A stretch of DNA of 64,000 bases from Rheinheimera salexigens (GTDB lineage: Bacteria > Pseudomonadota > Gammaproteobacteria > Enterobacterales > Alteromonadaceae), in contig NZ_MKEK01000001.1 of NCBI RefSeq assembly GCF_001752395.1, positions 981,044 to 1,045,043 on the forward strand. The letters are read 5' to 3'. Shown piece by piece: positions 48,809 to 51,454 of this stretch (positions are counted from its first letter, which is position 1; the number at the start of each line of letters is the position of its first letter). The translations under genes were made by a program, and so were the position numbers. The notes under the pieces are model-generated. The model was not told the DNA's origin and searched no databases. It saw only the letters and a program-made list of their open reading frames with translations.

Positions 48809-49495
48809 ATGTTGCAGTTTGATCAGGTGAGTAAAAGTTATCAAGGCGGCTTTGTCGCTTTGGATCGCGTAAGCTTTAAATTAGAGCGAGGCGAAATGGC
48901 CTTTTTAACTGGCCATTCTGGTGCCGGTAAAAGTACCTTATTAAAACTCATTAGCTTGATTGAACGGCCAACAGTAGGGCGAGTGTTAATTAATGATGTT
49001 GATTTAAGTCGTATTCGTCGGGCGCACATACCGTTTGTGCGCCGTGATATTGGCATTATTTTTCAAAATCACCGTTTATTAATGAATCATACTGTATTTG
49101 ATAATGTTGCTTTGCCTTTAGTCATTGAAGGTTTTAGTGGTAAAGATATGGTTAAACGGGTGCATGCGGCGTTAGATAAAGTGGGCTTGTTAGATAAAGT
49201 ACGCTGTTTGCCACAGACATTATCGGGCGGGGAACAGCAGCGTGTCGGTATTGCCCGCGCTGTGGTAAATAAACCACCATTATTATTAGCGGATGAGCCA
49301 ACAGGTAACCTTGACCCAGAGTTATCTAAAGAAATTTTACGCGTATTTGAAGCCTTTAATCAGGTGGGGGTGTCTGTGCTAGTGGCAACCCATGATTTAG
49401 GCTTAGTCGCTAGAAAAAAATACCGCACCTTAACCTTAAAGCACGGCAAGATGATTAACGACGGTTTATTACATACTGAGGATGCGCCTATATGA
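48809..49495 (+). CDS. ftsE: Cell division ATP-binding protein FtsE
   Basis: A 228-residue ABC ATPase working with FtsX at the septum to activate the EnvC-amidase system. Walker [10 protein letters not shown], signature [14 protein letters not shown] and Walker [13 protein letters not shown] are intact. ATG 48809 is one base after the ftsY stop; longer frames upstream run inside ftsY. The end overlaps ftsX by four bases (ATGA). Confidence 0.96.
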
Positions 49496-50475
49496 GTATG
49501 TTGTTTTCTGGTCGCGTAAGCAGTGGTGCTTCGGCTCGAAAGGTGGGCTTAGCGCGACGCTTTATTATGTTTTGGATTGATCATTTTCGCCAAGCATTAT
49601 TTAGCTTAGGTGAGTTATGGCGTACGCCCTCGGCATCATTATTAACCATAGCGGTGCTAGGCGTGAGTTTAACCTTACCCACGACATTACATTTACTAGT
49701 TAAAAACGTGCAACAGATTAGTGATGGTTTTACTGATGCGGCCGAGATCAGCTTGTTTATTAAAGAAGACAGCTCAGACAAACAAATAGCCAGTTTAGTC
49801 CACATTTTGCAAGCCGATAAAGATATCGCCAGAGTGACGTGGATTACTAAGCAACAGGCCATAAAAGAGTTTTCACAAGTGTCTGGTTTTGGCAGCGCGT
49901 TATCGTTATTAACTGACAATCCACTGCCTGATGTACTGTTAATATTACCGAAAAATACCGCAGCTGAACAAGCTAGACAACTATTAAGCCGGCTGCAAAA
50001 TGAGCGGTTGGTTGAGTCAGGTAAATTAGATATTGATTGGCTCACGCGACTTGATGCTATTGTTACTTTATTACGCCAAGCCGTGTTAGTGATTGCGTTA
50101 TTATTATTAAGTGCAGTATTACTGATTATTGGCAATACCATCCGCTTATCGATTATGAATAAAAAAGACGAAATAGAAGTAATGAAACTGGTTGGTGCTA
50201 CCGATGCATTTATTCAGCGTCCCTTTTTATACAGTGGCGTTTGGTATGGCGTATTTGGTGGTTTGTTAGCTTTCTTAATTGTTGAAGCCATGTTGTGGTG
50301 GTTGCAAAGTGCGATTGGCAGTATTACCTCTCTATACCAAAGTCAGTTTCAATTGATGTCGTTAGGCTTAGCTGAGTTTGTTGGTTTAATGCTAATTGCT
50401 ATCACGCTAGGTCTTGCCGGTTCTTATTTATCGGTGCGTCGTCATATTAGCGGCATTGAACCAACAGGCCCTTAA
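49492..50475 (+). CDS. ftsX: Cell division membrane protein FtsX
   Basis: A 327-residue permease-like partner of FtsE with four membrane helices and a periplasmic loop that binds EnvC (encoded at 52.5 kb). The first helix is SLLTIAVLGVSLTLPTTLHLL. The C-terminal half has IIGNTIRLSIMNKKDEIEVMKLVGATDAFI, the FtsX domain signature. The start overlaps ftsE. Confidence 0.95.
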   Translation: MSMLFSGRVSSGASARKVGLARRFIMFWIDHFRQALFSLGELWRTPSASLLTIAVLGVSLTLPTTLHLLVKNVQQISDGFTDAAEISLFIKEDSSDKQIASLVHILQADKDIARVTWITKQQAIKEFSQVSGFGSALSLLTDNPLPDVLLILPKNTAAEQARQLLSRLQNERLVESGKLDIDWLTRLDAIVTLLRQAVLVIALLLLSAVLLIIGNTIRLSIMNKKDEIEVMKLVGATDAFIQRPFLYSGVWYGVFGGLLAFLIVEAMLWWLQSAIGSITSLYQSQFQLMSLGLAEFVGLMLIAITLGLAGSYLSVRRHISGIEPTGP

Positions 50476-50540
50476 TAACGTATAAATCTTATAAATAACT
50501 TTTTTATAGCTATCTAATATTAAAACAACTGCAACTAAAA

Positions 50541-50570
50541 TTAGCACTCTATGTCAAAGAGTGCTAATAT
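50541..50570. promoter_or_regulatory. CIRCE element (HrcA operator) over the rpoH promoter
   Basis: TTAGCACTC (50541-50549), nine bases, GAGTGCTAA (50559-50567): a perfect match to the CIRCE consensus. A sigma-70-like pair TTAGCA (50541-50546) and TAATAT (50565-50570), 18 bases apart, is superimposed on it, so HrcA binding would cover the promoter. The rpoH ATG follows 33 bases later. Confidence 0.9.
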
Positions 50571-50602
50571 CGGTTTAGTCAGATTGAAAAAAGGATACTT
50601 TA

Positions 50603-51454
50603 ATGAACGATACAGCAAAAATGATCCCATTTCCGGTAGCCGCAAGCAGTAGCTTTGAGGCCTATACCCATGCTGTGAGTTCAATTGCGATGCTAACGGT
50701 AGATGAAGAGCGTGAACTGGCTCAGCGTTTATTCGATACTGGTGATTTAGCCGCTGCACGTAAATTAATTATCTCTCATTTACGCTTCGTAGTGCATATA
50801 GCGCGCAGTTACTCAGGTTATGGTTTACCGGTTAATGATTTAATCCAAGAAGGTAATATTGGCCTGATGAAGGCAGTAAAACGTTTTGATCCCGCGGTAG
50901 GTGTTAGGCTGGTTTCTTTTGCCGTGCATTGGATCAAAGCAGAAATTCATGAGTATGTGCTTAAAAATTGGCGCATAGTTAAAGTGGCAACCACCAAAGC
51001 ACAACGTAAATTATTTTTTAACTTACGCCGCTCTAAAAAGCATTTGGGTTGGTTTAGCCAAGACGAAGTAAAAAATGTAGCAGAATCTCTGGGTGTAGCA
51101 GAACATGAAGTGCGCGAGATGGAATCGCGACTAAGTAACTATGATATGCCATTTGACGCCCCAGATGATGATGACGATGCAGCTTTTACTGCTCCGGTAT
51201 ATTTTTTACAAGATAAAAGTTCAGATATCGCGCTACAGGTTGAAGAAGAACAAACGGATACTGCTGCGGTCGATAAATTACAAGCAGCGATGCGCACATT
51301 AGATGAGCGTAGCCAAGATATTGTTCGGGCTCGTTGGTTAGATAATAACAAGCTCACGCTACAAGAATTGGCCAATCGTTACTCGGTGTCAGCTGAGCGG
51401 GTGCGTCAGCTTGAAAAAAATGCGATGAAAAAGCTGCAAGCCGCAATGTGCTAG
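50603..51454 (+). CDS. rpoH: Heat-shock sigma factor RpoH (sigma-32)
   Basis: 283 residues directing transcription of chaperone and protease genes. Region 2 is [19 protein letters not shown] and [19 protein letters not shown]; the RpoH box is [19 protein letters not shown]; region 4 is [26 protein letters not shown] 50603 is preceded by AAAAGGATA. It follows ftsX by 127 bases with its own promoter region, which contains a CIRCE element. A terminator follows. Confidence 0.96.

Follow-up and report, generated by a model that had tools for sequence, protein, structure and literature searches.

We found a perfect CIRCE palindrome upstream of rpoH, the sigma-32 gene, of Rheinheimera salexigens, and our data suggest that it is a working HrcA operator. 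In the reading that we favor, with a probability of about 0.86, HrcA represses the rpoH promoters with the help of GroEL, and a sigma-32 loop closes on HrcA. Within this reading, binding to the operator is predicted, and we infer repression and GroEL dependence in this organism by analogy with HrcA of other bacteria. Since hrcA is present in the genome and the palindrome is conserved where hrcA is kept, control of sigma-32 transcription by HrcA is well supported by sequence comparison. The same comparison supports the proposal, made in a preliminary description of this DNA, that HrcA represses the sigma-32 gene.

The window, by which we mean the whole 64 kb stretch of DNA analyzed here, was scanned for TTAGCACTC-N9-GAGTGCTAA and contains a single match. 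This match, TTAGCACTC-TATGTCAAA-GAGTGCTAA, lies at 50541-50567, has 0 mismatches, and was annotated without strand as a predicted HrcA operator on the basis of the pattern scan and conservation. Shuffled versions of the window contained a mean of 0.02 CIRCE matches at up to 3 mismatches, and no perfect CIRCE other than 50541-50567 occurs in the 3.44 Mb genome; on the basis of the shuffle rate and this uniqueness, a chance origin was rejected. The following gene (50603..51454, + strand, 283 aa) is rpoH according to the equivalog model TIGR02392 (405.4 bits, cut-off 323.1), with 83% identity to rpoH of Rheinheimera pleomorphica. The exact CIRCE before rpoH that had been reported from the letters is thus borne out. 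The distance from CIRCE to the rpoH ATG is 35 bp; the promoter described earlier as lying 33 bases before rpoH is placed correctly if one counts from the end of its -10 element, and the figure does not apply to CIRCE itself. A likely ribosome-binding site for rpoH, AAGGA (50591..50595, + strand), was recognized by eye. The upstream gene (49492..50475, + strand, 327 aa), which we take to be ftsX-like from its position behind an ftsE-like ATPase, ends 65 bp before CIRCE. The genome has one further site at up to 3 mismatches, with exactly 3 (G000:C1:1830973). Approximately one three-mismatch site per genome is expected when the rate of 0.02 per window is scaled up, and a control with the reversed pattern gave none. 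The 3 kb locus of this site contains no rpoH, groES, groEL, hrcA, grpE or nadK, and with its 3 mismatches and none of the tested genes nearby it was rejected as a second HrcA target.

A profile search of the genome, as had been suggested in the preliminary description, found one gene above the PF01628 cut-off (121.5 bits versus 22.2), and TIGR00331 confirmed it as HrcA (226.4 bits, cut-off 197.2). The N-terminal part of the protein, in which SSATVRN and SPHTSAGRIPT occur, can be aligned with the solved HrcA structure 1STZ (E 5e-19); mild counter-evidence comes from PF03444 (HrcA DNA-binding), which scored 15.6 bits, below its cut-off of 21. The gene sits between nadK, which is divergent, and grpE. 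Matches to nadK, hrcA and grpE were found in all 30 family loci examined, at least one genome being present twice and Pseudoalteromonas being among them. In Escherichia coli K-12, grpE and nadK are direct neighbors with no hrcA between them, and the E. coli control genome gave no PF01628 match, in agreement with the earlier statement that E. coli is without HrcA.

We asked how CIRCE and hrcA are distributed among relatives. In a set of 80 rpoH loci from named relatives, CIRCE was sought within 350 bp upstream and was found in perfect form at nine: Rheinheimera, Alishewanella, Catenovulum, five Pseudoalteromonas and one gammaproteobacterial MAG. The best matches at the remaining 71 have at least 6 mismatches, which is the chance level. 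For 39 of the 80 loci, the genome was searched for hrcA, and the nine positive genomes are exactly the nine with CIRCE, while none of the 30 genomes lacking hrcA has it. None of the nine has a perfect CIRCE other than that at rpoH, and Catenovulum carries an additional tandem copy at rpoH with 1 mismatch. Among the sites of these nine genomes with 2 to 3 mismatches, six with loci (L118, L120-L124) have none of the tested genes there; most of the others are copies of a single repeated sequence. In four genomes (G005, G007, G010 and G019), one CIRCE-like sequence with 3 mismatches occurs in many copies, on many contigs and often near contig ends, and is probably part of a repeated element.

The association extends to the whole family. 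Among 335 family genomes, hrcA was found above the cut-off in 77, CIRCE (up to 1 mismatch) in 79 and rpoH in 333; a 78th hrcA match, in G078, is below the cut-off. CIRCE precedes rpoH in 77 of the 77 family genomes with hrcA versus 1 of the 258 without, and the palindrome, whose conservation in relatives the preliminary description had marked for checking, is therefore retained wherever family genomes keep hrcA. The one exception (G149) is a draft genome, 95% complete, which has CIRCE at rpoH and no hrcA match. Fisher's test gives 6e-76 for the link between hrcA and CIRCE in the family, a value that ignores kinship, so counts by genus are the more honest measure: the pair occurs in 9 of 52 genera, and the genus g50 is split, with both hrcA and CIRCE in four of eight genomes and neither in the other four. 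In 78 of the 79 CIRCE genomes the site is upstream of rpoH, mostly 33-38 bp and overall 29-107 bp before the ATG chosen by our script. The remaining genome (G162) has no hrcA match, and its CIRCE-like palindrome is not at rpoH. This palindrome (L149:1501-1527) follows the stop codon of a minus-strand ORF at a distance of 9 bp; it was rejected as an HrcA operator and is probably a terminator-like hairpin. A perfect palindrome in a genome without hrcA means that the CIRCE consensus alone is no proof.

Our data suggest that rpoH is the only gene under HrcA control in this genome. Besides the rpoH site, no CIRCE within 2 mismatches was found at groESL, at hrcA or elsewhere in the genome; the best matches have 7 mismatches at the groES/groESL locus and 6 around hrcA. 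Hence none of the sites that might have been expected upstream of groESL, dnaK or hrcA-grpE is there, and of the CIRCE elements sought in the follow-up of the preliminary description only that at rpoH was found, so that rpoH seems to be HrcA's only target. The same apparently holds for the family, whose predicted HrcA regulon is rpoH alone within 1 mismatch: each family genome with CIRCE has one site at this threshold, except three g50 genomes with two each, both at rpoH, and nine family genomes scanned at 2 mismatches contained rpoH sites only. Tandem CIRCE copies before rpoH, mostly with one copy degenerate, were seen in g50 (Catenovulum-like), g35 and g49 (L150-L153, L155 and L202).

The chaperone genes of the window's genome carry a different signal. 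Upstream of hrcA, a sigma-32-like motif, CTTGTTT-N13-CCCCATAT, begins 57 bp from the ATG (0.0025 of shuffles); upstream of groES, another, CTTGGGT-N14-CCCCATAT, begins 113 bp from the ATG (0.005 of shuffles). The motif scores are self-made and based on the consensus. Across the family, 22 of 30 loci have such a motif before hrcA at 0.05 or better, and eight fall short. Sigma-32 thus probably drives HrcA, GrpE and GroESL. Since sigma-32-type promoter motifs are found at groESL and hrcA-grpE and no other CIRCE is, a closed loop is predicted. HrcA bound to CIRCE would block RNA polymerase at the overlapping rpoH promoters and would thereby set the level of sigma-32 at transcription. Unfolded proteins would occupy GroEL, HrcA would become inactive, and rpoH would be derepressed; sigma-32 would then raise GroESL, GrpE and HrcA, which would close the loop and restore repression. 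This would amount to a negative feedback in which GroEL may be the sensor.

Promoter-like elements are interlocked with the palindrome itself. In the window, the CIRCE 5' arm makes a -35-like hexamer, TTAGCA (50541..50546, + strand, 4 of 6 to consensus), which is read from the letters and absent from the mechanical scan, and an extended -10-like element, TGC-TAATAT (50562..50570, + strand), is marked by conservation. The first three bases of TAATAT are the end of CIRCE, and the AT at 50569-50570 lies outside it and is conserved (A in 65 and T in 68 of 75 distinct family sequences). These sigma-70-like hexamers, TTAGCA-18-TAATAT, are weak, with 8 of 12 positions matching the consensus, and a mechanical sigma-70 scan of 50400-50700 listed no promoter (shuffles 1.1). 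The letters of the promoter named in the preliminary description are therefore present and the scan does not list it; it is conservation that supports it.

The sigma-E -35 element is GAACTT, and the sigma-E promoter consensus is GGAACTT-N15/16-(G)TCnnA. A sigma-E-like promoter, GCAACTA-N15-GTCAAA, overlaps the CIRCE 5' arm and spacer (50531..50558, + strand); its -35 is weak, and its score of 12.1 out of 13.8, approximately 0.005 of 200 shuffles, depends on a self-made motif and weights. The same register is shared at 0.01 or better by 23 of 79 family sequences; the others are without it, above all those of Pseudoalteromonas type, of which 1 of 19 has a sigma-E motif at 0.01, and that one is clear of CIRCE. 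In the Pseudoalteromonas type, a sigma-70-type promoter was seen by eye just upstream, with CIRCE near +1. Since this layout differs, the promoter architecture is not uniform within the family. Exact GAACTT occurs upstream of 14 of 75 family rpoH sites (shuffles 1.3) and is rarer than in other families. Among the named loci, sigma-E-like elements at 0.01 or better precede rpoH at 40 of the 71 without CIRCE and at 2 of the 9 with it (42 of 80 overall); enterobacterial P3-like sequences were recovered among these matches and serve as a positive control. Rows with the sigma-E-type motif at rpoH without CIRCE (within L017-L096) include Salinimonas, Marisediminitalea, Idiomarina and Enterobacterales. 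No sigma-32 motif at the window's rpoH was better than shuffles (0.45). From these letters we infer that overlapping sigma-70- and sigma-E-like promoters may be used at rpoH.

We next considered CIRCE across the class. CIRCE at up to 1 mismatch was found in 269 of 369 genomes of the class, often at two or three sites. Sites were placed in 77 genomes, representing 49 families, of the 268 outside the window's own family; this is not a random sample, and the presence of HrcA in it is presumed. Forty-five of the 77 had at least 90% completeness and a single site (45 of 46, G668 being left out) and were rescanned at up to 2 mismatches; the other 32 were the first-listed ones, with sites within 1 mismatch. 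The placed genomes contain 142 sites, of which 68 are before groES, 57 before rpoH and 14 before hrcA, with 3 unplaceable. rpoH is a target in 57 of the 77 genomes, 48 of which have groES as well, and the commonest target set is groES and rpoH alone (40 genomes), with groES alone in 15 and rpoH alone in 7. The arrangement is not peculiar to the window's lineage. Within this sample of the class, a CIRCE at rpoH appears to be a common arrangement, and the window's family stands out by having rpoH as its predicted sole remaining target.

Outside the family, the two kinds of sites differ in their layout. In 53 of the 68 groES sites, CIRCE directly follows the end of the best sigma-70-like promoter and so lies near +1. 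In 41 of the 57 rpoH sites, versus 1 of the 68 groES sites, the 3' arm continues into a -10-like TAAnAT, and 29 of the 57 rpoH sites have their best sigma-70-like -10 in the TAAnAT register. Exact GAACTT occurs within 60 bp upstream at 31 of 57 rpoH sites versus 1 of 68 groES sites (shuffles 0.6 and 1.2). In 24 of the 57 its first base is 15 or 16 bases upstream of CIRCE, which puts the TC of the 5' arm at the distance of a sigma-E -10 element, and position 12, in the spacer, is A in 42 of 57 rpoH sites versus 11 of 68 groES sites. With one genome per family the differences persist, both for GAACTT (19 of 37 rpoH versus 1 of 44 groES sites) and for TAAnAT (27 of 37 versus 1 of 44).

A palindrome can also act in RNA, and we considered whether this one forms a hairpin in the rpoH leader (a thermometer, a stability element or an attenuator) or a minus-strand terminator. 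The stem is a perfect 9 bp, message stability has been connected with CIRCE hairpins in mRNA in other bacteria, and on the minus strand the palindrome with its flank (50540-50568) scores as a terminator with a T-run. In the family, the arms are kept as letters rather than as pairs. The 75 distinct sequences give 675 arm pair cells, of which 673 match the consensus and two carry one-sided changes that still pair, with no double change; 16 of the 18 arm columns are invariant, and two have one exception each. The spacers, in 47 different forms among the 75 sequences, are more variable, except that their outermost letters are almost fixed (T in 70 and A in 74 of 75). In other families, the 57 rpoH sites have 472 of 513 cells at consensus, 23 one-sided changes that pair, 16 broken pairs and two double changes, one paired and one unpaired; the 68 groES sites have 580 of 612 at consensus, 11 one-sided paired, 15 broken and six double changes, all paired. 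The paired double changes speak for an RNA structure, but since a symmetric protein site also permits them, this count is undecisive outside the family. Further against a role in RNA, CIRCE presence tracks hrcA and not rpoH, an Rfam search of 50300-51000 gave no match, and transcripts from the overlapping promoters would begin at or behind the palindrome. We therefore regard a function in RNA as very improbable. Slightly more improbable still is that the site is a relic, with HrcA irrelevant to rpoH and the conservation due to recent ancestry or promoter constraint only. The arms double as promoter-like hexamers, which alone could hold some of the letters, but hexamers leave 18 arm columns around a more variable spacer unexplained. 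Furthermore, the palindrome is missing at rpoH in 257 of the 258 family genomes without hrcA, and CIRCE at rpoH occurs in at least 37 other families.

An alternative that concerns the signal and not the site is direct temperature sensing by HrcA bound at rpoH, as reported for Campylobacter jejuni, so that GroEL titration would not be the main signal. The available part of PMC8533110 describes C. jejuni HrcA as an intrinsic thermosensor whose binding is enhanced by GroE, and C. jejuni resembles the present case in its HrcA repressor and in that GroE-enhanced binding; its targets, unlike here, are chaperone operons, with HspR as a co-repressor. According to the same available text, GroE action on HrcA is also known for Bacillus (B. 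subtilis) and Chlamydia (C. trachomatis), which counts against direct sensing and is not decisive (PMC8533110). The PF01628 scores of Pseudoalteromonas-type HrcA are 31-50 bits versus 117-193 in other genera, leaving out one gene that is split between two contigs. In L105 and L219-L223, the HrcA C-terminal domain is strongly diverged, with the DNA-reading stretch and the CIRCE arms kept. Pseudoalteromonas-type HrcA thus possibly has a changed sensor domain, and since it is much diverged, sensing need not be the same there, a point in favor of direct sensing. We consider direct sensing unlikely as the main signal, yet a good deal less so than the two readings above, and it is compatible with HrcA repression of rpoH in everything except the sensor.

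HrcA/CIRCE control of groESL and hrcA-grpE-dnaKJ is classical in Bacillus and many bacteria. The present case shares with it the operator consensus, the repressor family and presumably GroEL-helped repression. It differs in that the classical targets are chaperone operons, whereas the target in the window is the sigma-32 gene, and in that groESL and hrcA-grpE of the window's genome bear sigma-32-type motifs instead. Escherichia coli rpoH has a sigma-E promoter, P3, and a similar GGAACTT-N15-GTCTGA is found upstream of rpoH in several enterobacterial loci; unlike the genome studied here, E. coli has no hrcA, and the enterobacterial rpoH loci are without CIRCE. In Geobacter sulfurreducens, a perfect CIRCE was predicted by computation at -51 of rpoH (PMC545781, available in part). 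That prediction concerns one species in which, unlike here, groESL and the hrcA operon carry CIRCE too, and neither overlap with a promoter nor loss together with hrcA is mentioned in the available part (PMC545781). The same available text gives groESL as the only constant member of the HrcA/CIRCE regulon in delta-proteobacteria (PMC545781), whereas groESL is not a target in the window's genome, with 7 mismatches at best. No mention of CIRCE at rpoH was found in the available parts of PMC10490939, PMC3989490, PMC3135505, PMC5904260 and PMC8533110, or in PMC5343134. In the partial coverage of the literature available here, we found no report of it other than PMC545781, and an earlier listing is quite possible (Permina and Gelfand 2003, RegPrecise). 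HrcA/CIRCE and the Geobacter rpoH prediction are therefore known, and a single-target regulon with interlocked promoters was not found described within this partial coverage.

In E. coli, control of the sigma-32 response acts mostly on translation and on the stability of the protein. We hypothesize, at roughly even odds, that in CIRCE-bearing and presumably HrcA-bearing Gammaproteobacteria rpoH is a standard HrcA target whose operator is interlocked with a sigma-E promoter (the TC of the 5' arm serving as its -10) and with a sigma-70 promoter (the 3' arm serving as its -10). GroEL, via HrcA, would gate the whole sigma-32 regulon, and envelope stress, acting through sigma-E, would raise sigma-32 only once HrcA is released. 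In the window's family, the HrcA regulon would have shrunk to this one gene, and the E. coli arrangement would be a derived one, in which hrcA and CIRCE have been lost and the sigma-E promoter survives. If this is true, the two best-known heat-shock systems would be stacked in series and would not be alternatives, GroEL might act as the sensor, and E. coli would be an exception that has lost the upper layer. Furthermore, this would explain why hrcA persists where no chaperone operon has CIRCE.
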